A DNA stretch of 64,000 bases, from NCBI RefSeq assembly GCF_017875465.1, contig NZ_JAGGMQ010000001.1:3968001-4032000 (forward strand). The letters are read 5' to 3'. This DNA comes from Winslowiella toletana (lineage in GTDB: Bacteria; Pseudomonadota; Gammaproteobacteria; Enterobacterales; Enterobacteriaceae). A program made the translations under genes and the position numbers. The notes below the pieces were generated by a model. It was given only the letters and a program-made list of their open reading frames with translations, was not told the origin of the DNA and made no database searches. This document shows, in pieces, positions 33,727 through 46,339 of the stretch. Numbering within the stretch: position 1 is the first letter of the stretch; each line of letters opens with the position of its first letter.

Positions 33727-34647
33727 ATGACTTTCAACGCATTGCGTAGCGGGTTACTGGGATTTGCCGCACTGATGACGCTGGCCGGGACGGCGTCGGC
33801 GGCCGATCCGGTGCGTGTCGGTTCAAAAATTGATACTGAAGGCTCATTGCTGGGCAATATCATTCTGCAGGTGCTGGATAAACACGGGGTGAAAACCGTG
33901 AATAAAATTCAGCTCGGTAATACGCAGGTGGTGCGCGGCGCCATTACCGCCGGTGAGCTGGATATCTACCCTGAATATACCGGCAACGGCGCGTTTTTCT
34001 TTAATGATGAGAAGGATGCGGCGTGGAAAAATGCCAAAGCCGGGTTTGAGAAGGTGAAAACCCTCGACCAGCAGAAAAATCAGCTGACGTGGTTAACCCC
34101 GGCGCCAGCCAATAACACCTGGACCATCGCGGTACGCAGCGATGTGGCACAGAAGAATCAGCTGCACTCGCTTGACGATCTCAGCCGTTATCTGAAGTCG
34201 GGTGGTGAGTTCAAACTGGCGGCGTCGGCGGAGTTTATTGAACGTGCTGATGCGCTGCCGGCGTTTCAGAAAGCCTACGGCTTCCAGCTAAAGCAGGATC
34301 AGCTGCTGTCGCTGGCCGGTGGTGATACCGCGGTAACAATTAAAGCTGCCGCGCAGCAAACCTCCGGCGTCAATGCCGCGATGGCTTATGGCACCGATGG
34401 TCCGGTGGCGGCGCTGGGCCTGCAAACCCTGAGCGATCCGAAAGGCGTACAGCCAATCTATGCGCCTGCTCCGGTGGTGCGCGCCGCGGTGCTGAAGCAG
34501 TATCCGGATATCGCAAAATGGTTGCAGCCGGTATTTAGCTCACTGGATGAAAAAACGCTGCAACAGCTGAATGCCAAAATCGCGGTGGAAGGGCAGGACG
34601 CGAAAAGCGTGGCGGCCGACTATCTGAAACAGAAAAAACTGCTGTAA
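33727..34647 (+). CDS. osmF: OsmF, betaine-type ABC transporter binding protein
   Basis: Periplasmic solute-binding protein (306 residues) of the OpuAC/ProX-like family, serving the low-affinity glycine betaine importer OsmF-YehYXW. Signal peptide 1-25 (cleavage after TASA). Nearly identical blocks to E. coli OsmF: VGSKIDTEGSLLGNIILQVL, GELDIYPEYTGNGAFFF, LTPAPANNTWTIAVR, LAGGDTAVTIKAAAQQTSGVNAAMAYGTDGPVAALGLQTLSDP. It is the first gene of the operon; a hairpin separates it from yehY. Confidence 0.95.
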   Translation: MTFNALRSGLLGFAALMTLAGTASAADPVRVGSKIDTEGSLLGNIILQVLDKHGVKTVNKIQLGNTQVVRGAITAGELDIYPEYTGNGAFFFNDEKDAAWKNAKAGFEKVKTLDQQKNQLTWLTPAPANNTWTIAVRSDVAQKNQLHSLDDLSRYLKSGGEFKLAASAEFIERADALPAFQKAYGFQLKQDQLLSLAGGDTAVTIKAAAQQTSGVNAAMAYGTDGPVAALGLQTLSDPKGVQPIYAPAPVVRAAVLKQYPDIAKWLQPVFSSLDEKTLQQLNAKIAVEGQDAKSVAADYLKQKKLL

Positions 34648-34652
34648 GTCGC

Positions 34653-34684
34653 CGTGCAGACGCGATTATCGCGGCGTCTGCACG
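34653..34684 (+). promoter_or_regulatory. Intercistronic hairpin osmF-yehY
   Basis: Perfect 11-bp inverted repeat CGTGCAGACGC/GCGTCTGCACG with a 10-nt loop, located just after the osmF stop. There is no T run. Such elements commonly keep binding-protein mRNA abundant relative to the downstream permease. Confidence 0.7.
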
Positions 34685-34735
34685 TCCGTAATCTGCGCCA
34701 GGTGGATGCCGATCCGCTGGCTGAACGGAGTCATT

Positions 34736-35896
34736 TTGCGAATCACACTGTATAACCGCGTGTTGCTGGTTTTGATGCTGCTGATGCTGATTGCCATCAG
34801 TACGCTGCCTTTCCTGACTTATGCTGCTAATCGTCTGGTCTCTGGTCAGCCGCTAATGCTGTGGTCGCTGCTGGACGGCGTCAATGGCTTGCTGCTGTTG
34901 CCGGTGCTGTTGCTGTTTCTGCTGGCCTGGCGTCCGGTGACGCGTGGCAATCTGACGCTGGTGGTGATCCTCAGTGAAATCCTGCTTACTCTGCTGGTGG
35001 CGTTTAGTGGCCACCAGGCGACAACGCTGGCGCAGCAGGGCAGTCCGCTGGCGCGCACCGCCTTCGGCAGCGGTCTGTGGCTGGCGGCGGCGCTGTGCCT
35101 GTTGATCGCCGCAGATGCGCTGACGCGCGCCACGCACAGCGCCTTCTGGCGGCTGTTGCTCAATGCTCAGATGTGGCTGCCGGTGATTGCGCTGCTGCTG
35201 CTGGGTCAGCTCGATCAGCTGGCGCTGTTAAAAGAGTACGTTAACCGCCATGAAGTGTTTGATCAGGCGCTGTCACGTCATCTGTTGCTGCTGGTCAGTA
35301 CTCTGCTGCCGACACTGTTGCTGGGACTGCCACTGGGCCTGCTCTGTTACCGCCAGCCGCGCTGGCAGTCATCAGTGTTTGCGCTGCTGAATATTATTCA
35401 GACCGTGCCATCGGTGGCGCTGTTTGGCCTGCTGATTGCGCCACTGGCGGGACTCGCCAGGAGCTTTCCGCTACTGGCGGGTCTTGGCATCAGCGGCATC
35501 GGTATGGCGCCAGCGCTGATTGCTTTGGTGCTGTATGCGTTGTTGCCGCTGGTGCGCAGCGTGGTTGCCGGATTGCAGCAGGTGCCTGCCGGGGTGATTG
35601 AGACGGCCAGAGGCATGGGCATGACGCGGATGCAGGTATTCTGGCATGCGGAAGCGCCACTGGCGTTGCCGGTGATGCTGAGTGGTCTGCGGGTGGTGGC
35701 GGTGCAAACCGTCGGCATGGCGGTGATAGCCGCGCTGATCGGTGCCGGTGGATTTGGCGCAATTATCTTTCAGGGCTTACTGAGTAGTGCGCTGGAGCTG
35801 GTGCTGCTCGGGGTGATCCCGGTGATTGCCATGGCGGTGGTGGTCGATGCGCTGTTTAAATTTGTGATTTCACTGCTGGAGGCGGAACGCCGATGA
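34736..35896 (+). CDS. yehY: YehY, betaine ABC transporter permease
   Basis: Inner-membrane permease of 386 residues from a TTG start with GGAG 5 nt upstream. This start aligns the N-terminus with E. coli YehY. An ATG at 34706 would add ten residues but has its Shine-Dalgarno too close. An N-terminal four-span extension precedes the BPD-transport domain (about 195-380), which contains LLNIIQTVPSVALFGLLIAPLAGLA and the EAA loop GVIETARGMGMTRMQVFWHAEAPLALPV. It overlaps yehX by 4 bp (ATGA). Confidence 0.92.
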   Translation: MRITLYNRVLLVLMLLMLIAISTLPFLTYAANRLVSGQPLMLWSLLDGVNGLLLLPVLLLFLLAWRPVTRGNLTLVVILSEILLTLLVAFSGHQATTLAQQGSPLARTAFGSGLWLAAALCLLIAADALTRATHSAFWRLLLNAQMWLPVIALLLLGQLDQLALLKEYVNRHEVFDQALSRHLLLLVSTLLPTLLLGLPLGLLCYRQPRWQSSVFALLNIIQTVPSVALFGLLIAPLAGLARSFPLLAGLGISGIGMAPALIALVLYALLPLVRSVVAGLQQVPAGVIETARGMGMTRMQVFWHAEAPLALPVMLSGLRVVAVQTVGMAVIAALIGAGGFGAIIFQGLLSSALELVLLGVIPVIAMAVVVDALFKFVISLLEAERR

Positions 35897-36828
35897 TCCA
35901 CTTTGACCAGGTGAGTAAGTATTTTAATGGCAATGCGGCGGTCAGTGACTTAACCCTGAATATAGCTGAAGGCGAATTTACCGTGCTGATTGGCACCTCC
36001 GGCTCGGGCAAGTCCACCACCCTGAAAATGATTAACCGGCTGATTGAGCATGATGCCGGCGCCATTCGTTTTGCCGGAGAAGAGATCCGCAGTTTTAATC
36101 CGCAGACTTTGCGGCGTCGCATGGGGTATGCGATTCAGTCGATCGGTCTGTTTCCGCACTGGACGGTGGAGAAGAATATCGCCACCGTGCCGTCGCTGCT
36201 TAACTGGCCGAAAGCGCGTATTGATGAGCGGGTAAGCGAGCTGCTGGCCTTGCTGAATCTGGATAACGCATTTCGCCAGCGCTATCCGCATCAGCTGTCC
36301 GGTGGTCAGCAGCAGCGGGTTGGGGTGGCGCGCGCACTGGCGGCCGATCCGGAAGTACTGCTGATGGACGAACCTTTCGGTGCGCTCGATCCGGTGACTC
36401 GCGCCGCGCTACAGCAGGAGATTATCCGTATTCATCAGCTGTCGGGGCGTACCATCGTACTGGTTACGCACGATATTGATGAAGCCCTGGCGCTGGCGGA
36501 TAAAATTGTGCTGATGGATGGCGGGCGTGTCATTCAGCAGGGTACGCCAGTTGAGCTGTTAACCCGTCCGGCCACGGCTTTTGTGCGAGATTTTTTTGGT
36601 CGCAGCGAGCTGGGCGTACGTCTGCTGTCGCTGGGCAATGCTGGCGCTACCGCCAGGCGTGGCGAGTGGCTGGACGCGGAACCGGTGGCATCCGATATCA
36701 CCTTACGCGAGGCGCTTTCGCTGTTTATTGGCCGGCAGACCGATAAATTGCCGGTAGTGGATCAGCAGCAGAAGCCGCTCGGCGTGCTGCATTTTATCGA
36801 TCTGTTGCGTCAGCGGGAGGCAATATGA
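35893..36828 (+). CDS. yehX: YehX, betaine ABC transporter ATPase
   Basis: A 311-residue ABC ATPase: Walker [11 protein letters not shown] (about residue 36), signature [15 protein letters not shown], Walker [14 protein letters not shown], and H-loop [11 protein letters not shown]-terminal CBS-like portion ([34 protein letters not shown]) is typical of betaine importers, where it senses ionic strength. It is translationally coupled to both neighbours by 4-bp overlaps. Confidence 0.94.
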
Positions 36829-37559
36829 TGCGCTGGCTGCGCGATCCGTTGCTGTGGCTGCTGATGTTATTTATCGCGCTGCTGCTGGCGTTGCCACACA
36901 GTGGTGCGCTGTTTGCTTACTGGTTTCCGCAACTGGAGCGGCCGCTGTATCAGCAGGATAGCTTTGCCCGGCTGGCACTGGCGCATATCGAGCTGGTGGC
37001 AATCTCCAGCCTGCTGGCGACACTGCTGGGGGTGGGCGCAGGGATACTGGTTACGCGTGGCGCCGGACGTGAGTTTCGTTCGCTGGTGGAGACGCTGGTG
37101 GCGGCCGGACAAACCTTCCCGCCGGTGGCGGTGCTGGCGATTGCGGTGCCGGTGATGGGGTTTGGCGATCGACCGGCGATCATTGCGCTGTTGCTGTACG
37201 GACTGTTGCCGATTTTGCAGGCCACGCTGGCCGGGATCAGCGCGGTACCCGCCAGCGCGCGGGAGATTGCCGAAGGTACAGGCATGAGCGCATGGCAGAT
37301 TTTAACCAAAGTGGAGCTGCCACTGGCGGCGCCGGTGATCCTTGCAGGTGTGCGCACCTCGGTGATCATCAATATCGGTACCGCGGCCATCGCCTCAACG
37401 GTCGGCGCGAAAACCCTTGGCTCACCGGTGATTATCGGCCTGAGCGGCTTTAATACCGCTTATATTATTCAGGGCGCGGTACTGGTGGCCCTGCTGGCGA
37501 TTGTCACTGACAGAGTGTTTGAACGACTATTGCAGCGGCTTAAGAAGCATGCAGAATAA
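36825..37559 (+). CDS. yehW: YehW, betaine ABC transporter permease
   Basis: A 244-residue permease with about six spans and the BPD-transport EAA loop ([29 protein letters not shown]). Last gene of osmF-yehYXW. Its final 20 bp overlap the convergent 3' end of yohO on the other strand. Confidence 0.93.
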
Positions 37560-37647
37560 TGGCGTAGCCCACCAGCATCAGACCGCCAACGCCGCCGATA
37601 GCCAAAACCAGGAAGCCAGAGATAATCGCAACTTTTTGCAGGTTCAT
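37540..37647 (-). CDS. yohO: YohO, 35-residue membrane microprotein
   Basis: A short ORF on the minus strand reading [20 protein letters not shown] and ending YAIILHAS. It has the same length as E. coli YohO (35 aa) and shares the Val-Ala-x-Ile start, the IGGVGG-x-MLxGY core and its position between yehW and mlrA. A single hydrophobic span covers residues 6-32. The Shine-Dalgarno is AAAGG. The 3' end overlaps yehW tail-to-tail by 20 bp. A terminator lies just upstream (37664-37700), so it needs its own promoter or read-through; TATGAT on the minus strand near 37685 is a candidate -10. Confidence 0.85.
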
Positions 37648-37724: not shown

Positions 37725-38258
37725 TTATTGCACGCCATTCGCTTCTTTGTTGAAAAATATTGTCACGCGCGCCACTTCAATACCCAGTTTTTTCAGTGAA
37801 GTGACGTTCAGCAAATGATGTTCATCCTGCTGCCAGATCCAGTCATCAAAGTTCAGACGGTAACTGGAGTCGTCCGTTTTCACCTCCATCTGATAGCGCC
37901 AGTTAAAGGCATTGCCCGCCGTATGACCAATCGCGCGACCAATAATATCGTTTGCCGTGCCGACATAGCTGCCATCCTGCAGACGACGAATCTGCCAGAC
38001 GCGCGTCTGCTTCTCGCCATCGTCATAGACAAACTGCTCATGCAGGGTCAGGGTTTCACCCAGCACCTCACCGCGAATGGTGACTTCAAAGCGTCGAATC
38101 TGTTTGCCACTGAAATCCTGCACCATCCCCCAGGCGCGCGACTGACCGTCAAAATAGCGGAAAATATCAATTTTTGGCGTGGCTGACTGATAGTCATCAA
38201 TAGTGCTGCCACAGCCGCTGATTACCAGGCATAGCCCCAGACAGAGTGCTTTCCACAT
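37725..38258 (-). CDS. DUF3833 lipoprotein
   Basis: A 177-residue lipoprotein with signal peptide and lipobox LVISGC (Cys about residue 16), destined for the envelope. The DUF3833 body includes IDIFRYFDGQSRAWGMVQDFSGK and DEHHLLNVTSLKKLGIEVARVTIFF. DUF3833 genes recur in clusters with a Cfa-like methyltransferase, DUF1365 and FAD oxidoreductase genes in many proteobacteria, so a role in envelope-lipid modification is inferred. A 71-bp gap separates it from DUF2878, so it may also have its own promoter; a terminator follows it. Confidence 0.82.
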   Translation of the reverse strand: MWKALCLGLCLVISGCGSTIDDYQSATPKIDIFRYFDGQSRAWGMVQDFSGKQIRRFEVTIRGEVLGETLTLHEQFVYDDGEKQTRVWQIRRLQDGSYVGTANDIIGRAIGHTAGNAFNWRYQMEVKTDDSSYRLNFDDWIWQQDEHHLLNVTSLKKLGIEVARVTIFFNKEANGVQ

Positions 38259-38329
38259 TTCAGATTCCTCCGGTCAGACCCTGACGGATTTCAGGGTATT
38301 CGGTTTTTGCTGACAGCCATCTTTTCATG

Positions 38330-38809
38330 CTATGTGTTCCTCAGTATCCTGCGTGTCACCGGCAGATAGAACGCCCAGCCGCAGCCCAGCAGGGGGTAAA
38401 CCAGCGCGGCGCTGTGTTGCAGTTGCATCGCGCCGAGCTGGGCGCCAGTCAGATAACTTAACGGGCCACCGATAGCACCCAGTGCAATCAGCCAGCTAAG
38501 GGGTAACTTCAGCGTCGCTATCAGCGTTCGCCACCAGCAGGCAAAGGTCAGCCATAACGACAACATCCACAATGGCAGCCACTGGCTGCCACTAAAGTGC
38601 AACAGATCCAGCGCCAGCCACAGGCTGTCGAGGGCGATGCCGATCATCGCCAGCGCTAACAACGACCAGCGGCTGCCATGGGGAGACAGCCATAGCGCCA
38701 GCAAAGCAATCGCCGCGGCGGCCAGTTCGCCACGTTCGCGCAGGCCCACGGCCAGTGCCCAGTAAGCATCGAAGCCGAGGGTCAGCAGCCAGAAGCGCCA
38801 GTTTTTCAT
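38330..38809 (-). CDS. DUF2878 membrane protein
   Basis: A 159-residue integral membrane protein with about five spans, starting MKNWRFWLLTLGFDAYWALAV. The conserved DUF2878 block is GAIGGPLSYLTGAQLGAM. The ATG overlaps the stop of the Cfa-like gene (ATGA, 38809-38806), so it is translationally coupled. A longer frame upstream lies inside the Cfa-like gene and is rejected. Function unknown; the context points to membrane lipids. Confidence 0.82.
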   Translation of the reverse strand: MKNWRFWLLTLGFDAYWALAVGLRERGELAAAAIALLALWLSPHGSRWSLLALAMIGIALDSLWLALDLLHFSGSQWLPLWMLSLWLTFACWWRTLIATLKLPLSWLIALGAIGGPLSYLTGAQLGAMQLQHSAALVYPLLGCGWAFYLPVTRRILRNT

Positions 38810-40035
38810 GCGCGAGCGGCAGTCAGCTGCACGGTGCCAATGGTGCGCGCCATAAAGCCTGCCTCGCAGTAGCAGAGATAGAACAGCCACATACGGCGAA
38901 AACGCTCATCAAACTGGCTGTTTTCCAGCTGCGGCCAGGCGCGATCAAAACGCTGACGCCATTCACGCAGCGTTCTGGCGTAGTCGTGGCCCATCTCAAA
39001 AACATCCTGCACCACGTAGTCGCTGACGTCGCTCATTGTCTGCTGCAGCAGGGTGACGGAAGGTAAAAAACCACCGGGAAAGATATAGCGTTGAATAAAA
39101 TCAACGCCTTTGGCATAGCTGCCGTAGCGTGCTTCGCTGATGGTGATCGCCTGCAACACCATCCGACCACCGGGTTTTACCAGCTCCTGACAGCGCTGGA
39201 CAAACAGCGGGATATAGCGGCGACCCACGGCTTCAATCATCTCGACCGATACCAGCTTGTCATACTGGCCTTGCAGGTTGCGGTAGTCCTCGCACAGCAC
39301 CGTGACCCGATCGCTCAGTCCGGCCTGTTCAATACGCTGACGGGCAAACTGATACTGTTCGCGCGAAATGGTGGTGGTAGTCACCCGACAACCATATTCA
39401 CGAGCGGCAAACTCCGCCAGCGCGCCCCAGCCGGTGCCGATCTCCAGCAAATGATCGCCGGGACGCAGCGCCAGCTTGACGCAAAGCCGGCGTAGCTTCG
39501 CTTCCTGCGCCTGTTCCAGTGTGGTGCTGTGATCGCGAAACCAGGCGCTGGAATACTGCATCGATTGATCGAGAAAGGCGCGATAGAAGTCGTTGCCCAG
39601 ATCGTAGTGCGCGGCGATATTGCGTTTCGCCTGGCGTACGCTGTTACGCCGCAGGGCGTGAATCAGTTTGTTAACCGGGATGGTGAGCCAGCTTAAGCGC
39701 GTTTCCAGTTTATCCATTACCGCCATATTCAGCGCCAGCGTCTGGATCACGGCCGTCAGATCCGGCGTGTCCCAGTCATCGTCCATATAGCTTTCCGCCG
39801 CCGCAATGCTGCCGCCGAGCAATACGCGGCGATATGCCCGGGTATGTTTGACCTGCACTTCCGCCTGCAAGGCTGCCTGTGGATCACCAAAAAACTGCTC
39901 CCCCAGATGCGGATCAATAATGCGTAATCCGGCGCCACTAATGTGGTTTAACAGCGCAAAAATCACACGACGCGAGGCTGAGACGCGCTTGCCGGGTTTA
40001 TTGCCGTGCGTAAAGCTCACTTCAGAGATGCACAT
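38806..40035 (-). CDS. Cyclopropane-fatty-acid-synthase-like SAM methyltransferase
   Basis: A 409-residue enzyme of the CfaS family, which methylates or cyclopropanates unsaturated acyl chains of membrane phospholipids using S-adenosylmethionine. Seen are the SAM loop LLEIGTGWGALAEFAA (about residue 200), the active-site approach NDFYRAFLDQSMQYSSAWF, EMIEAVGRRYIPLF and the C-terminal LCYCEAGF. In clusters of this composition the methyltransferase has been linked to furan fatty acid precursors (UfaM-type) instead of stationary-phase cyclopropanation. The sequence does not decide between them. GGAG precedes the ATG. Confidence 0.85.
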   Translation of the reverse strand: MCISEVSFTHGNKPGKRVSASRRVIFALLNHISGAGLRIIDPHLGEQFFGDPQAALQAEVQVKHTRAYRRVLLGGSIAAAESYMDDDWDTPDLTAVIQTLALNMAVMDKLETRLSWLTIPVNKLIHALRRNSVRQAKRNIAAHYDLGNDFYRAFLDQSMQYSSAWFRDHSTTLEQAQEAKLRRLCVKLALRPGDHLLEIGTGWGALAEFAAREYGCRVTTTTISREQYQFARQRIEQAGLSDRVTVLCEDYRNLQGQYDKLVSVEMIEAVGRRYIPLFVQRCQELVKPGGRMVLQAITISEARYGSYAKGVDFIQRYIFPGGFLPSVTLLQQTMSDVSDYVVQDVFEMGHDYARTLREWRQRFDRAWPQLENSQFDERFRRMWLFYLCYCEAGFMARTIGTVQLTAARA

Positions 40036-40038
40036 GGT

Positions 40039-40752
40039 CTATTTCTCCGACTTCGGATGGTTATACAGCGGCGCGCCTTTGCGCCATAACCTGAAAGCCT
40101 GCCAGTAAATGGCCAGCGCCGTGCGCAGGGTAATCAGGGGAAAACGCCACAAATGGTGGCGCAGGTTGCGACCTGTTAATGGCTGCTGACGCAGATACAG
40201 TGTCGCGTCGAATTCCCGCCCGATACGGTGGTTTTCAATATGGACGGAGAGCGATTTTGCAGGCCGCGACAGCCGCCAGTGATAAACCATATCCATCGGA
40301 TTAAACGGCGAGACATGAAAGGCTTTTTCCGTGGTTTCACTGCCGTCGGGATTGACCGCATAGGTATGGCGCTCATTCCACGGCGTATTACGCACCTCCG
40401 CCAGCATCCAGCGCAGCTGGTCGTGCTGATCATAGAGGTAGTAAAAATTGACCGGATTAAATGAGCAGCCAAGATAGCGCAGCTGACACAGCAGCATCAC
40501 GCGGCCGGTCAGCGTCTCGCCGGTCAGTTCGGCAATGCGCTGCTGGGCGCGCGTTTTGATATCTCCACCGCCGAGATAATCCTCAGGATAAAATGAGGCA
40601 GGGGAGAAGCGTCCGAGGCGGATCCCCACTTGTGACAACAGCGGCAGCTCATCAAGGTCAATCAGCGGCATGAAAATGCGATAGCTGAACTGATGATCGA
40701 TGGGCGTAAAACGCCGGTGGCGCACATGGCCGCTGTAGAGGGTGCTGTTCAT
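40039..40752 (-). CDS. DUF1365 family protein
   Basis: A 237-residue protein of the DUF1365 family, with the N-terminal LYSGHVRHRRFTPIDHQFSYRIFMPLIDLDEL and CSFNPVNFYYLYD plus the invariant EVRNTPWNERHTYAV. Its activity is uncharacterised, but it is a constant partner of the FAD protein and Cfa-like methyltransferase around it. Start overlaps the FAD gene stop (ATGA). There are no obvious membrane spans. Confidence 0.88.
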   Translation of the reverse strand: MNSTLYSGHVRHRRFTPIDHQFSYRIFMPLIDLDELPLLSQVGIRLGRFSPASFYPEDYLGGGDIKTRAQQRIAELTGETLTGRVMLLCQLRYLGCSFNPVNFYYLYDQHDQLRWMLAEVRNTPWNERHTYAVNPDGSETTEKAFHVSPFNPMDMVYHWRLSRPAKSLSVHIENHRIGREFDATLYLRQQPLTGRNLRHHLWRFPLITLRTALAIYWQAFRLWRKGAPLYNHPKSEK

Positions 40753-42014
40753 AACAGCGCCGCCTGTTCCATCGCGGCGACCACGTCCAGCGCACTGCGG
40801 ATGCCGTCTTCATGAAAGCCGTTATAACTCCAGGCGCCGCAAAACCAGCTGCGGCGCTGGCCGTTCAGCAGCAGACGCTGCTGCTGAGTCATCAGGCTTT
40901 GTGCGCTGAATTGCGGATGATGATAGCAATATTTTCCCAGCACTTTGCTGGCGTCAATCGGTCGCGTCGGATTAAGCGAAACGCAGAACGTATGCGGAGC
41001 ATCAATGCCCTGCAACATATTCATATTGTAGGTCACACTGGCGCCCAACAGCTCATCGCCGTTTTGCGTATCATCAAGGTGGTAATTCCAGCTGGCCCAT
41101 GTGCGACGATTGGTGGGAAGCATGGCGGTGTCGGTATGCAGCACCACCTCATTGACGCTGTAAGGCACGCCCGACAGCATGGTCTGTTCTTCCGGCGTGG
41201 CGTCCTGCAGCATCTGAAGCGTCTGATCGCAGTGGCTGGCAAAAATCACCTGATCAAAGCGCTGACTGCCGTTAGCGGTGCGTAATGTCACCCCCTCCGC
41301 ATCGCGCTGCACGGCAAGCACCGGGGTATTCAGATGCAGTTGCAGTTTATTATCCAGCAGCGCCAGCAAGCGGCTAACATATTGACGCGAGCCACCCGGG
41401 ATCACATACCACTGCGGCCGGTTAACCACATCCAGTAAGCCGTGGTGGTTGAAAAAGTGCAGAAACAGCGACAGTGGCATATTGCGCATTTCAGCCAGTG
41501 AGGTTGACCAGATCGCGGCCCCCATCGGCAGGATATAGTGCTGGGCAAAAAAGTTGCTGAAGCCCTGACTATTGAGAAAGTCATCCAGCGTTTCATCATC
41601 GTTTTGTTGCTGTAACCACAGTTTTCCGCGCTGATTAAAACGCATAATTTCGCCGATAAAACGCAGAAATTTCGGCCTGAACAGGTTGCTGCGCTGGGCA
41701 AACAGACTGTTCAGCGAGTGGCCGTTATATTCGAGTCCACTGCGGTGGTTGCTGACGGAAAAGCTCATTTCTGTTTTCTGGCTTTCCATGCCCAGCTCAG
41801 CCAGCAGCGAGAGAAATCGCGGGTAGGTGCGGTCGTTATAAACAATAAAACCGGTGTCGATCGCCCAGGTTTTACCCTCCAGCTCGACGTCGATAGTAGC
41901 GGTATGGCCGCCCGGCGTGGCTGAAGCCTCAAACAGCTGCACATCGGCGCGTTCAGCCAGTTTCCAGGCGCAACTAAGCCCGGCAATGCCGCTGCCGATA
42001 ATGGCAATCTTCAC
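40749..42014 (-). CDS. FAD-dependent oxidoreductase (amine-oxidase/desaturase-like)
   Basis: A 421-residue flavoprotein with an N-terminal FAD dinucleotide motif (IAIIGSGIAGLSCAWKL, residues 3-19) and the follow-on GGHTATIDVELEGKTWAIDTGFIVYNDRTYPRF. This is typical of the NAD(P)-binding Rossmann/amine-oxidase-like family found with DUF1365 and Cfa-like genes. Relatives may oxidise or desaturate lipid-bound acyl groups; that is inference. The start codon is GTG (42014) with GAGGTAG 4 nt upstream. Confidence 0.85.
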   Translation of the reverse strand: MKIAIIGSGIAGLSCAWKLAERADVQLFEASATPGGHTATIDVELEGKTWAIDTGFIVYNDRTYPRFLSLLAELGMESQKTEMSFSVSNHRSGLEYNGHSLNSLFAQRSNLFRPKFLRFIGEIMRFNQRGKLWLQQQNDDETLDDFLNSQGFSNFFAQHYILPMGAAIWSTSLAEMRNMPLSLFLHFFNHHGLLDVVNRPQWYVIPGGSRQYVSRLLALLDNKLQLHLNTPVLAVQRDAEGVTLRTANGSQRFDQVIFASHCDQTLQMLQDATPEEQTMLSGVPYSVNEVVLHTDTAMLPTNRRTWASWNYHLDDTQNGDELLGASVTYNMNMLQGIDAPHTFCVSLNPTRPIDASKVLGKYCYHHPQFSAQSLMTQQQRLLLNGQRRSWFCGAWSYNGFHEDGIRSALDVVAAMEQAALL

Positions 42015-42018
42015 AAAA

Positions 42019-42735
42019 CTACCTCGCTATCTGCTGAGTTAAAAGTCGCTGCCACGACTGGGGTAAACGCGAAATCAGGCGCAGCAGCAGAGCAAACAGG
42101 GGCGGAAAAACCACTTCCCGTTTGCCCCGCGCCAGACCACGACGAATAAAGCCTGAAGCCTGTGCCACGTTAATTTTCATCGGCATAGTAAAATCGTTGC
42201 GCGCAGTGAGTGGCGTATCAACAAATCCCGGTAATACCAGCGAAATATGGATCTGCCGCCGGGTCAGATCCTGCGCCAGACTGCGGGCGAAGTAAGCGAG
42301 CGCCGCTTTGGATGCGCCATAAGCTTCCGCGCGCGGCAGTGGCACCAGGCTGGCGGTAGAGCCGACCAGCGCCACCCGGCTCTGTGGCGGCAGTTGCGGT
42401 AGCAGAGCATCAAGGCAATTGACCGGGCCGCTGAAATTGGTGCTCATCACCCGATGGACTTTTTCGGCGTCGACCACGCCATTATCGAGATATTCACAGG
42501 TGCCGGCGCAGAGGATCACCAGCTCGGCGCTTTTACCGTTCAGCGCCGCGCGCGTGTCAGCTAAATCGGTGATATCGAATACACAGAGGGTAATGTCAGG
42601 GGCATGGCTGTGCAGCTGTTGCAGTTTGTCGCGGTTACGTCCGCAGGCGATCACCGCCCAGCCGTCAGCGGCATAATCGCATGCCAGCTGAAAGCCAATT
42701 CCTGAACTTGCACCGGTAATCAGTACGCGTTTCAT
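42019..42735 (-). CDS. Short-chain dehydrogenase in the lipid cluster
   Basis: A 238-residue SDR: cofactor motif TGASSGIGF (residues 7-15), CAGTCEYLD in the NNAG position, catalytic Ser in VGSTAS and YGASKAALAYF (Tyr/Lys). A hydrophobic C-terminal helix (PLFALLLRLISRLPQSWQRLL) could anchor it at the membrane, fitting a lipid substrate. It overlaps the NTF2-like gene by ATGA and lies 4 bp from the FAD gene. Confidence 0.85.
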   Translation of the reverse strand: MKRVLITGASSGIGFQLACDYAADGWAVIACGRNRDKLQQLHSHAPDITLCVFDITDLADTRAALNGKSAELVILCAGTCEYLDNGVVDAEKVHRVMSTNFSGPVNCLDALLPQLPPQSRVALVGSTASLVPLPRAEAYGASKAALAYFARSLAQDLTRRQIHISLVLPGFVDTPLTARNDFTMPMKINVAQASGFIRRGLARGKREVVFPPLFALLLRLISRLPQSWQRLLTQQIAR

Positions 42736-43169
42736 GATTTCAGCCTCCTTTTCAGGGCGGCGATCACGCGTCCCAGCAACGGTACTTTTTCATACAGCAT
42801 TTCGCCGAGGTCATAATAATCGCGCTGAAAATGGATACGCTCCTGGCGAAAGGTCAGATAACTGCTGCCTTCCAGCGACTGTGGCGCGCCTTTTTGCAGC
42901 GCCGGATGCGCATATTCCATCCGCCATAACAGCAATGCACACTGGTCAAAATAGTGCTTGTGCGTCACTTCAAAACGGCAATAGCGCAAGTTTTTCAGTA
43001 GTGAAGCAAAATAGCGTTCCAGCGCTTCGAGTCCGTGATGCTGACCTACAGGATCCACCAGCAACATATCCTGATGGTAAATCTCAGCGAGCTGGCTAAG
43101 TTGTCCGGCCTGCATATTCTGGTAAAACGCCACCAGGCTATTCAGTGTGACCTGTTGTGCATGCTGCAT
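42732..43169 (-). CDS. NTF2/SnoaL-like protein
   Basis: A 145-residue protein of the NTF2/SnoaL alpha+beta barrel fold (AEIYHQDMLLVDPVGQHHGLEALERYFASLLKN). The fold binds small hydrophobic ligands or acts as cyclase/isomerase. It is the first structural gene after mlrA (18-bp gap, AGGGA before the ATG) and is coupled to the SDR. Specific role unknown. Confidence 0.8.
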   Translation of the reverse strand: MQHAQQVTLNSLVAFYQNMQAGQLSQLAEIYHQDMLLVDPVGQHHGLEALERYFASLLKNLRYCRFEVTHKHYFDQCALLLWRMEYAHPALQKGAPQSLEGSSYLTFRQERIHFQRDYYDLGEMLYEKVPLLGRVIAALKRRLKS

Positions 43170-43187
43170 AGTTATCCCTAAACTGCT

Positions 43188-43919
43188 TTAACCGCTAAGG
43201 GGTTTAATGGAGAACCCTTGCTCCTGCCAGTGCGCGATCTGTTCCTGCTGACCCCGCGTGAGTTTTTTACCGGTCCACAGGAAAAGATGCTGACCAGGGA
43301 AAAGCTCTGGTCGCAGGGTATCCAGTGGTTCTGCTAATACGTCAATGCGCCAGCCATGCTGTGATAAGCGCCATGCCTCCAGCCAGAGTCGGGTGCGATC
43401 CTCTGTTCCCCAGCCGAGCAGTAACGCATCTTTACCGGCCTTCTTACGCGATCCTGTCAGACAGAATGCGACATAGTCGATAAGTGCGCCATCCAGCAGG
43501 CTGCTCATGGCTTTTGCCGTAGCCTGATCCAATCCCAGCCGCTGACGAACCGGTATAATCACATTATCTATTAGCGCATCTGATGGGTTTTCGCGACCCA
43601 TTGTGGCAATTTTTACCCGTAATTTGGATGGGCGTACGCTTCGCAGCACCGCCATCAGCTCATCCTGCAGGGTCATCCAGCCGTCATGGGCATGGACGTT
43701 TTCACCCTCGAGCAGGGCCTTCACTTTGCCCACCGGTACGCCGCTTTCCACCCAGCGCATGATTTCTTCAATACGGCGGATATCCTCATCATCAAACTGA
43801 CGATGACCTCCCTCCGAGCGCTGGGGTTTTAACAAACCATAACGACGCTGCCATGCACGTAGCGTTACCGGGTTGATCCCACAACGTTCAGCGACTTCAC
43901 CGATACTATAAACGGCCAT
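43188..43919 (-). CDS. mlrA: MlrA, MerR-family transcription regulator
   Basis: A 243-residue regulator very close to E. coli MlrA. The MerR winged helix at the N-terminus reads [44 protein letters not shown] long C-terminal effector domain resembles the B12-binding module of light-sensing MerR proteins, but no cobalamin-binding His motif (DxHxxG) is visible. In E. coli MlrA activates csgD for curli/biofilm. Here it is the first gene of a packed operon of lipid-modification genes, 18 bp before the NTF2-like gene. A TGTACA palindrome lies 56 bp before its start. AGAGG precedes the ATG. Confidence 0.92.
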
Positions 43920-43975
43920 GTTTTTCCTCTTTATGCGACCATCTCTACCTCAACGTTAGCCCGACACGGTTAACT

Positions 43976-44000
43976 TGTACAACTATTTTTACATTGTACA
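43976..44000. promoter_or_regulatory. MlrA-like operator, TGTACA-N13-TGTACA
   Basis: Two TGTACA half-sites (43976-43981 and 43995-44000), with TT before each, lie in the divergent mlrA/XRE-cupin intergenic region. From memory, the reported E. coli MlrA site in csgD is a TTGTACA-N12-TGTACAA palindrome, and light-responsive MerR (LitR/PplR) boxes share the TGTACA core. The spacer here counts 13. It suggests autoregulation and control of the downstream operon, and possibly the divergent gene. Confidence 0.6.
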
Positions 44001-44029
44001 GGTTGACCTGGCGCAATTTCAGGAGTATT

Positions 44030-44063
44030 TCTCATATTTGAGATTTAATCCCTTATTTGAGAT
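44030..44063 (+). promoter_or_regulatory. Repeats before the XRE-cupin gene
   Basis: TCTCA-TATT-TGAGA palindrome (44030-44043), plus a direct repeat TATTTGAGAT at 44035-44044 and 44054-44063, 19 bp apart and ending 6 bp from the start codon. The placement suits an autoregulatory operator for the XRE-cupin protein. Confidence 0.45.
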
Positions 44064-44069
44064 GAATAT

Positions 44070-44633
44070 ATGACCCGACAGGATGGCACTGAACAACGAC
44101 TGGCTTTCAGGCTGGCTGAATTGCGGCTGGAGAAAGGCTGGTCGCTGGAAGAACTGGCGGAGAACACCGGTATCAGTCGCGCATCGCTGTCACGGATTGA
44201 GCGCGCGGAAACCAGTCCGACGGCGTCCCTGCTGAATAAGCTGTGTGCAGCTTATGGTCTGACCATGTCGCGCTTACTGAGTGATGTGGAAGAGAATATT
44301 GCCCAGCACCTGCGTGCGGAACAGCAGCTGGTATGGGTTGATAAAGAGAATGGTTTTGAGCGGCGCAGTCTGTCACCGCCCGCCACTGCCTTTCGCGCTG
44401 AGCTGGTTGAGGCACGGCTGCGTGCCGGGGCGCGCATTGAATACGATACGCCGCCGCTGCCGGGCCTGGAGCAACATATCTGGATACTGGATGGTGTGCT
44501 GGAAATCAGGATGAATGAGCAGCACTGGCGGCTGGTCGCCGGAGATTGTCTGCGCTTTCATCTTTTTGGCCGCTCCTCTTTTCACGCGCCGGACACTATG
44601 GCGCACTACGCTCTGGTGGTATGCCGACCATGA
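44070..44633 (+). CDS. XRE-family regulator with C-terminal cupin domain
   Basis: A 187-residue one-component regulator. The N-terminal HTH (about 8-65) reads LAELRLEKGWSLEELAENTGISRASLSRIERAETSPTASLLNKLCAAYGLTMSRLL. The C-terminal cupin sensor (about 100-185) has a small jelly-roll pattern, LEQHIWILDGVLEIRMNEQHWRLVAGDCLRFHLFGRSSFHAP. Such regulators sense amines, amino acids or antibiotics. The stop overlaps the first acetyltransferase start as ATGA, giving a three-gene operon. It is divergent from mlrA. Confidence 0.85.
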   Translation: MTRQDGTEQRLAFRLAELRLEKGWSLEELAENTGISRASLSRIERAETSPTASLLNKLCAAYGLTMSRLLSDVEENIAQHLRAEQQLVWVDKENGFERRSLSPPATAFRAELVEARLRAGARIEYDTPPLPGLEQHIWILDGVLEIRMNEQHWRLVAGDCLRFHLFGRSSFHAPDTMAHYALVVCRP

Positions 44634-45630: not shown

Positions 45631-45987
45631 TTAGCCGGTAAACGCCTTGATGATGGCAGGAATAAATTGCGCCAGAAACACGGCACCCATCACCCACATA
45701 ATGATTTGGCTCTTCGCCTCGCTGATTTCACTTCTGATGGCGCTGATATCCGCTTTAGTGGCATAGTTTGATTTAATCACCGCGACATCAATTTTCAGCT
45801 CTGCAACATCGGTTTTCAGGACTTCAACATCGGTTTGCAGCTTACCCACATCGGTTTGCAGCTTACCCACATCGGTTTGCAGCTTGCTCACATCGGTTTG
45901 CAGCTTGCTCACATCGGTTTGCAGCTTGCTCACATCGGTTTGCAGCTTGCTCACATCATATTCGAGTTTTTCCAGTCTCGGTTGCAT
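45631..45987 (-). CDS. Heptad-repeat coiled-coil protein with C-terminal membrane anchor
   Basis: A 118-residue protein: short N-terminus MQPRLEKLEYD, then nine or so consecutive heptads of DVSKLQT/DVGKLQT type (about 11-73). A linker YATKADISAIRSEISEAKSQI follows, then one hydrophobic span IIMWVMGAVFLAQFIPAII (about 94-112). It should form a parallel coiled-coil rod anchored in the inner membrane, resembling small XhlA/DUF1640-like proteins. Its ribosome-binding site AAGGAGGTGAT is an 11-nt perfect complement to the 16S 3' end, 3 nt before ATG. A farther in-frame ATG (46065) is inferior. Function unknown. Confidence 0.75.
   Translation of the reverse strand: MQPRLEKLEYDVSKLQTDVSKLQTDVSKLQTDVSKLQTDVGKLQTDVGKLQTDVEVLKTDVAELKIDVAVIKSNYATKADISAIRSEISEAKSQIIMWVMGAVFLAQFIPAIIKAFTG
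45828..45953. repeat. Six tandem 21-bp units encoding heptads
   Basis: Units of CATCGGTTTGCAGCTT plus ACCCA (two copies) or GCTCA (four copies), head to tail. A degenerate seventh copy lies at 45807-45827. It is coding (DVSKLQT heptads on the minus strand). Near-identity of the units suggests recent expansion, and copy number is likely variable between strains. Confidence 0.92.
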
Positions 45988-46339
45988 ATTATCACCTCCT
46001 TTGTGATTACCGTCGGAGAACCGACAGTTTCCCCGGGCGATTTTAGTCTGTTTTGCATTGTGCATATTTTATCCAATATCCTTTTGGTTGTCCTGAGTTT
46101 TTTGTCAATTTTTTGCCGCAGATGACACTCGGTTAGCTGATTCAATCATGAGCCAGCAAGAATGAAAATCACCACTAACGAAATTTGGAATGCGTCACGC
46201 ATATGGTAAACTCCGCCGCAAACCAGGGCTGAATAGCTGCAATTCTCTGTAGAGCACTGTTGTGTTTTATGATGATATGTTGTGCATAATATAAGCTGAT
46301 TTTTCGACAACTAACTGAAATAAAACAGAACCTAAATAA
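45988..46339. other. Gene-poor intergenic region between coiled-coil gene and dinG
   Basis: About 350 bp, AT-rich, holding the leader of the coiled-coil gene and the dinG promoter region. In the minus-strand leader a CTGTCGG/CCGACGG hairpin sits 30 bp before the ATG. ATCAC/GTGAT flanks the strong Shine-Dalgarno so that it would lie in a loop. No convincing LexA box (CTGT-N8-ACAG) was found before dinG. No further gene seen. Confidence 0.5.

Follow-up and report, generated by a model that had tools for sequence, protein, structure and literature searches.

In Pseudomonas, genes for a photolyase, a short-chain dehydrogenase (SDR), a flavin adenine dinucleotide (FAD) oxidoreductase and UfaM are clustered beside a gene for class II LitR (PplR/PmlR), a MerR-type repressor that has a short LOV protein as partner and is described as binding T(G/A)TACA-N12-TGTA(C/T)A with site 1 over the -35 element (PMC9758184). 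In E. coli, BluR, which BluF releases, controls ycgZ-ymgAB and binds a GTACA repeat at ycgZ (PMC3509220), while its relative MlrA, a curli activator (PMC3509220, citing Ogasawara 2010), binds AAAGTTGTACA(12N)TGCACAATTTT at csgD, and the account in PMC3509220 explains the MlrA/BluR pair as a rather recent duplication of the curli activator. Here we describe an eight-gene operon of Winslowiella toletana (37725-43919, minus strand), in which a regulator of the MlrA/BluR/LitR family at the mlrA locus is followed by seven lipid-type genes; it lies in a stretch of 64,000 nucleotides from contig NZ_JAGGMQ010000001.1, referred to below as the window. A preliminary description of this DNA proposed that MlrA was originally the local regulator of the lipid cluster and that E. 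coli lost the targets and kept the regulator. This idea is supported because synteny, trees, operators and fold agree, and we consider it quite probable that the window regulator controls the lipid operon and that this original role was later lost in the line to E. coli.

The window locus resembles each of these systems in part. It shares with the Pseudomonas class II LitR system a MerR-type regulator of the same branch, a TGTACA half-site lying over -35, and SDR, FAD and UfaM-type genes as well as a photolyase gene, but its spacer is N13 instead of N12 (PMC9758184), and its regulator comes first in the lipid operon, with rudS-phr as an operon of its own. Compared with BluF-BluR as presented in PMC3509220, BluR is closer to the window regulator than MlrA is and recognizes the same GTACA motif, yet no BLUF protein was found in the window genome and the predicted target is the lipid operon. 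Compared with MlrA-csgD of E. coli, the chromosomal locus (yohO, osmF) and the protein domains are the same and the csgD site, TGTGCA-N12-TGTACA, is related to the window operator; however, E. coli mlrA has no operator in its own promoter and no lipid cluster, and csgD was not found in the window genome.

Predicted operator and anatomy of the lipid operon

The regulator gene (43188-43919, minus strand; Pfam MerR_1, MlrA_helical and MlrA_C) is preceded by a predicted operator, TGTACA-N13-TGTACA (43976-44000, minus strand), whose promoter-proximal half overlaps the probable -35 element TTGTAC (43982-43977). The probable -10 element, TAACGT (43953-43958, minus strand), lies 18 bp from the -35 element; both were assigned by eye, and an element similar to this -10 occurs in relatives, including E. 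coli-type mlrA. The TGTACA-type repeat over -35 is a trait of the LitR/CarH branch, with a spacer of N13 here and N12 in the system of PMC9758184, and control of the operon by the window regulator is predicted. Two perfect TGTACA-N12-14-TGTACA sites occur in the 5.3 Mb window genome and none in the reversed control, and none of 20000 shuffles of the 150 bp intergenic stretch gave a perfect site with spacing 12 or 13. Across nine genomes with an MlrA-headed cluster, 14 perfect sites were found (one in the reversed control), nine of which are the cluster promoter; the reversed control for all 26 genomes searched gave four. The other perfect repeat in the window genome has spacing N14 (G000:C1:4657549-4657574; L248, L290) and lies outside the listed open reading frames (ORFs) of >120 codons, with no obvious target.

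When 115 family rows were scanned, the perfect N13 repeat was found 75 to 90 bp before the gene in all cluster-headed genes, both Erwinia-type (5/5) and Yersinia/Serratia-type (11/11). BluR genes carried a repeat of spacing 12-15 within one mismatch in 11 of 13 cases, and so did the unassigned row L041. No repeat within one mismatch was found in 12 E. coli-type mlrA genes, two remnants, nine rows classed as 'other' and two single rows, nor in 20 further loci whose E. coli type was confirmed by best match and yohO/yehW neighbours, giving a total of 0/32 for the E. coli type. The contrast between cluster-headed and E. coli-type genes (16/16 against 0/12) has a Fisher p of 3e-8 with relatedness ignored, and some rows are near-identical (e.g. 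L100/L162), so that 16/16 means fewer than 16 independent events. Since the -10-like element is still recognizable by eye in E. coli-type promoters, the operator rather than the whole promoter seems to have been lost. Upstream of clusters without MlrA or LitR, the TGTACA repeat was absent from all 11 loci. It is also rare before litR itself, occurring in 2 of 22 cluster-linked rows and 0 of 7 others, because rudS usually leads there.

The eight-gene operon is real: all genes lie on the minus strand, the intergene gaps in operon order are 18, -4, 4, -4, 3, -4 and 71 bp, and the Pfam families match the earlier naming, so that the tight spacing and the wider gap before DUF3833 given in the preliminary description hold. 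After the regulator come an NTF2/SnoaL-like protein (42732-43169; Pfam SnoaL_2/NTF2), an SDR (42019-42735; adh_short), an FAD amine-oxidase-like protein (40749-42014; Amino_oxidase), a DUF1365 protein (40039-40752; 3e-80), a Cfa-like S-adenosylmethionine methyltransferase (38806-40035; CMAS, 7.7e-87), a DUF2878 protein (38330-38809) and, as the final gene, a DUF3833 protein (37725-38258), the last two named after their Pfam families. The single terminator reported to close the series corresponds to a terminator-like hairpin followed by a T run (37695-37677, minus strand); this call rests on position and the T run because the hairpin scan gave 13 terminator-like sites in 8.5 kb against 8.1 in shuffles. 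The 71 bp gap (38259-38329) is the place where relatives hold a Chalcone_3 (chalcone isomerase-like) gene, in 2/5 Erwinia-type and 5/11 Yersinia/Serratia-type loci, and the window operon may have lost this gene.

By family, the FAD-DUF1365-Cfa core is a candidate counterpart of the ufaD-ufaO-ufaM pathway, by which Rhodobacter and Rhodopseudomonas make a methylated furan fatty acid from the vaccenic acid of their phospholipids (PMC7380195). UfaD is described there as a nicotinamide adenine dinucleotide (NAD)/FAD-binding protein akin to phytoene dehydrogenases, and UfaO as containing a DUF1365 domain. The three families are adjacent in the window, where the FAD protein is the candidate UfaD (methyl-fatty-acyl desaturase), the DUF1365 protein the candidate UfaO (furan ring formation) and the methyltransferase the candidate UfaM; the match is at family level, the Rhodobacter proteins having been compared by description. 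The genes are likewise consecutive in R. palustris (RPA2569-2571; PMC7380195). Unlike the R. sphaeroides pathway, which is raised by loss of ChrR (PMC7380195), the window cluster is headed by a MerR regulator, and it also contains NTF2, SDR, DUF2878 and DUF3833 genes, its product being predicted from the enzyme families. A second methyltransferase homologue elsewhere in the window genome, with 43% identity, is presumably the ordinary Cfa. In Vibrio cholerae, the Cfa-like gene VC1122 is reported as induced by blue light, in a response that overall needs ChrR and a MerR regulator (PMC5241685). Common enteric and plant-associated bacteria are predicted to contain furan or methylated fatty acids, and the DUF2878, DUF3833, NTF2-like and SDR proteins gain a regulatory and chemical context.

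Synteny and descent of regulator and cluster

E. coli K-12 has mlrA, yohO and yehW side by side, with no gene between them, in line with the earlier statement that E. coli mlrA stands beside yohO without lipid genes, and the osmF-yehYXW quartet adjoins mlrA-yohO there and in other E. coli-type loci. The same markers lie beyond the window operon as a yohO-like ORF of 35 codons (37540-37647, minus strand) and the convergent osmF-yehY-yehX-yehW transporter (33727-37559, plus strand; NCBIfam OsmF), and therefore seven lipid-type genes fill an interval that is empty in E. coli. The cluster directly follows mlrA in Serratia, Hafnia, Ewingella, Rahnella and two Erwinia species, and yohO then follows the cluster in all of these genera except Rahnella, whose locus is truncated by the end of the contig; Serratia, Hafnia and Ewingella have an oppositely oriented EamA gene between the two. 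With Yersinia, the arrangement of mlrA and cluster recurs in six genera, the nearest named cluster relatives of the window being Erwinia persicina and E. mallotivora, and yohO or yehW lies beyond the cluster in 12 of 16 cluster-headed loci. Hence a cluster peculiar to the window genome was rejected, and the proposal of the preliminary description survives the comparison. One further locus (L123) holds mlrA and a DUF2878 gene, among others, between XRE and yehW, and might be a half-deleted cluster. A near-identity search of E. coli genomes gave no match.

In a sample of 217 genomes from a broadly drawn family, an MlrA-family protein was found in 83 (E 1e-35) and the FAD protein in 25 (E 1e-30), 24 of them strong homologues, and the FAD gene was within ~3 kb of an MlrA-family gene for 22 of these 24 (exceptions G166 and G126). 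In a named locus survey covering the best 80 of at least 572 loci, an MlrA-family gene lay near the FAD gene in 17, a LitR-like gene in 27 (with photolyase near in 22 and rudS in 25), an extracytoplasmic function (ECF) sigma/ChrR pair without MerR in 15, an M48 peptidase neighbour in 11 and none of the listed neighbours in 10. A paralogous pair is seen again in Kosakonia, Klebsiella, Citrobacter and Buttiauxella. One more paralogue of the MlrA family, the third, is 41-46% identical to the window protein (L126-L136 and L095-L110); it has rudS close by at most of its loci, some of which also carry the lipid cluster in a second copy.

The family tree was built from 77 of the 115 rows, after removal of 38 that were redundant or on long branches, and was rooted on the branch (99/97) that separates LitR from the enteric MlrA family. 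E. coli-type MlrA, Erwinia-type mlrA and BluR form one clade (100/99), and the cluster-linked mlrA genes of Serratia/Hafnia/Rahnella and of Yersinia branch outside it, the deep order among the Yersinia, Serratia and rudS-type branches being weakly supported. BluR is a single clade (100/93) among Erwinia-type genes. Constraint tests rejected all cluster-linked MlrA proteins as one clade travelling with the cluster (219 log units, p 1.6e-65), BluR and E. coli MlrA as a simple pair (p 0.007), and E. coli-type and Erwinia-type mlrA as a clade without BluR (p 0.004). The rejection of the BluR-MlrA pair is to be read with caution, as E. coli MlrA is on a fairly long branch and the groups were named after the tree had been seen.

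Patchy presence of the cluster, with seven sampled Erwinia-type mlrA loci lacking it, and its occurrence elsewhere, with a rudS-type paralogue or with no MlrA gene, are what would be expected if it had been inserted by horizontal transfer beside a pre-existing mlrA, the regulator being co-transcribed without exerting control. However, the mlrA-yohO interval is occupied in two distant groups, an MlrA-type operator stands at the operon promoter, and a homologous LitR heads the same genes outside enterics. The tree of cluster proteins (62 chosen loci, a quick method with SH-like approximate likelihood ratio test (SH-aLRT) support only) is also as vertical descent predicts, since Erwinia-type clusters form one clade (100) that is joined to the Yersinia/Serratia/Pectobacterium clusters at 98; the rudS-type clusters of Enterobacter/Klebsiella stand apart (100). 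Vertical descent with repeated loss fits this tree, two transfers into the same interval seem less likely, and we regard insertion without control as rather unlikely.

The window regulator shows the MlrA domain layout, with MerR, MlrA_helical and MlrA_C all above the Pfam cut-off, and is 62% identical to E. coli BluR and 56% to E. coli MlrA. It scores below the NCBIfam MlrA equivalog cut-off (305 against 417 bits) and groups with Erwinia-type mlrA and BluR (97/90), near the BluR clade but not within it, and not with E. coli MlrA. The trees place the descent of the window 'mlrA' closer to bluR than to its E. coli namesake, despite its position at the mlrA locus. The earlier proposal of an original local regulator whose targets were lost in E. 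coli therefore stands in its outline, backed by synteny, trees, the operator and the E. coli-type mlrA genes without operator, and needs the one correction that the window gene is closer in descent to bluR.

Homology to LitR extends beyond the DNA-binding domain, the profile match between the families of the window regulator and LitR covering 229 columns (E 1.4e-54). The predicted fold of regulator residues 79-243 matches the cobalamin domain of CarH (CarH residues 78-249), the alignment (A2) used for fold prediction containing LitR rows; by sequence alone, an MlrA-only profile matched CarH just in the MerR domain. Modelling thus predicts a CarH photosensor-like fold for the C-terminal part of MlrA, which lacks the B12 motif of CarH. 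Adenosyl-B12 is bound through the motif [DE]xHxxG. This motif was looked for and rejected in the window regulator and is absent from 113 of 114 other family rows, 29 LitR rows included; CarH of Thermus (PDB 5c8d), in contrast, binds adenosylcobalamin.

The wider regulon and its proposed rewiring

RudS removes 4-thiouridine from tRNA, and its genes are described as often lying in light-responsive operons (PMC11417400). At loci with rudS and litR (Vibrionaceae, Aeromonas and others), repeats of spacing 11-13 precede rudS in 21 of 25. Enterics have rudS-phr as an operon of its own, and there a site within one mismatch was found before rudS in 8/11 Erwinia-type genomes, including the window genome (TATACA-N13-TGTACA), and, with spacing N12, in 6/8 Serratia/Yersinia-type genomes; mononucleotide shuffles gave such a site 4 times in 3000 per 150 bp. 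No site was found before phr in eight E. coli-type genomes or K-12 (0/9).

At csgD, a site with spacing N12, 286 to 310 bp upstream and with at most two mismatches, was found in 16 of the 27 E. coli-type genomes that could be tested, among them K-12, against 0/12 others (G283 was left out because of a contig end, G215 was counted with 370 bp only and G331 as E. coli-type). CsgD itself was detected at E 1e-40 in 61 of 217 genomes and in none of 10 Erwinia-type genomes, which include G308 and the window genome (G000). The MlrA domain architecture and the resemblance of the -10 element to that of E. coli mlrA would allow the window regulator to be a general biofilm or stationary-phase regulator as in E. 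coli, with the lipid genes as a minor added target. This is very unlikely, given the lack of a csgD homologue at E 1e-40, the absence of the csgD site from the 12 genomes of other types, and the presence of only two perfect operators in the window genome, one of them at the lipid operon.

Second perfect sites in other genomes, for the loci that were inspected (some sites had no locus), lie in four cases between rcsD and ompC (L296, L301, L304 and L312, all E. coli-type), in flanking genes that we take to be rcsD and ompC from their protein starts, and in one case before rudS-phr; the rest have no common neighbour. E. coli K-12 likewise has a perfect TGTACA-N13-TGTACA in the ompC-rcsD intergenic region, ~160 bp before rcsD (L347 about 3327; record 2313326). 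This repeat is a possible direct site of BluR or MlrA on the Rcs system.

These data suggest the following mechanism. The regulator would be a MerR protein of the LitR/CarH branch that lacks B12, and would repress its own operon by occupying TGTACA-N13-TGTACA over -35. An inducing signal, which by comparison with relatives we lean slightly towards regarding as photo-oxidative (light or singlet oxygen), would release it, and UfaM, UfaD and UfaO steps would then place methylated or furan fatty acids in the membrane. The regulator probably also controls rudS-phr, and thus tRNA 4-thiouridine removal and DNA photolyase. Such an arrangement would be ancestral and akin to the single rudS-litR-phr-lipid gene series that Photobacterium and its relatives still have. 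On the way to E. coli, a deletion would have removed the lipid cluster from between mlrA and yohO, both mlrA and rudS-phr would have lost their operators and a related site would have appeared at csgD, and by this loss and gain the regulator would have become a biofilm activator. The Erwinia-type gene, close to BluR, would keep the old role, and E. coli-type MlrA would be the derived copy.

Several observations weigh against this history. As E. coli MlrA activates csgD, repression is not to be assumed. The operator is not kept for the cluster alone, as all seven cluster-less Erwinia-type mlrA genes retain it, six perfectly and the seventh with one mismatch. Conversely, a rudS-type paralogue can head the cluster without a TGTACA operator (0/15 promoters with cluster, and 0/9 without cluster); 19 of these 24 promoters share a TAGTATA element, and no operator is recognizable. 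Clusters without a nearby MlrA or LitR gene are common, with 36 in the best 80 of the at least 572 loci, Pectobacterium among them. Of the 16 cluster-headed loci, three (two Yersinia and G375) have flanks other than yohO, and one more is truncated by a contig end. A CsgD-like protein occurs in 5/6 Serratia/Yersinia-type genomes with the cluster. Finally, the link to light is one without a known sensor, because the window regulator has no B12 motif and no BLUF protein was found in its genome, a domain search for a BLUF or BluF (BLUF-EAL) partner in that genome having been negative, and such a partner was rejected.

Retention of the operator at cluster-less loci, together with the replacement of the MerR regulator by ECF/ChrR at 15 of the best 80 loci, would also suit a TGTACA repeat that solely autoregulates mlrA, the operon being controlled only by another factor such as sigma-S or an ECF sigma. 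However, with gaps of -4 to 18 bp, a second promoter would not fit between the genes ahead of the eighth, so that autoregulation would also hit the cluster unless a promoter lies inside a gene, and both regulator types were found together at none of the best 80 of at least 572 loci. We consider this explanation highly improbable and retain control of the lipid operon by the window regulator.

A broader statement can be put forward, to which we give about even weight: MlrA and BluR may descend from a LitR-type repressor that acted locally on a photo-oxidative regulon of lipid, photolyase and tRNA-repair genes, a regulon that was dismantled stepwise, and the Erwinia-type regulon may still work through a CarH-like-domain input needing neither B12, BLUF nor a local ECF/ChrR, which would be a novel sensory mechanism. 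In contrast to the recent duplication of a curli activator, the present data suggest another order, in which the family is older, the lipid and photolyase targets are ancestral and the curli link is a derived rewiring. Such rewiring can be read base by base in three promoters, and the history is directly testable. Searches of the open-licence PMC literature gave no paper that connects MlrA with CarH, photolyase or DUF1365 in this way; a report in a subscription journal is possible.

Neighbouring features

A second, diverged MlrA-family protein (35% identity) is encoded in the same genome (G000:C1:2188331-2189035; L142); it belongs to a separate clade ('other') that has members in eight further sampled genomes. 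Upstream of the operon, a divergent XRE regulator (44070-44633, plus strand; Pfam HTH_3) serves as a further synteny marker, being present also in Erwinia persicina, Serratia, Ewingella and Rahnella. Close to this gene, in the shared intergenic region (44023-44075), an inverted TCTCA...TGAGA-like repeat, which by eye recurs in some Erwinia-type relatives, may be the XRE regulator's own operator. Past the GNAT genes, a minus-strand ORF (45631-46065) contains a run of KLQTDV heptad-like repeats and is coiled-coil-like.

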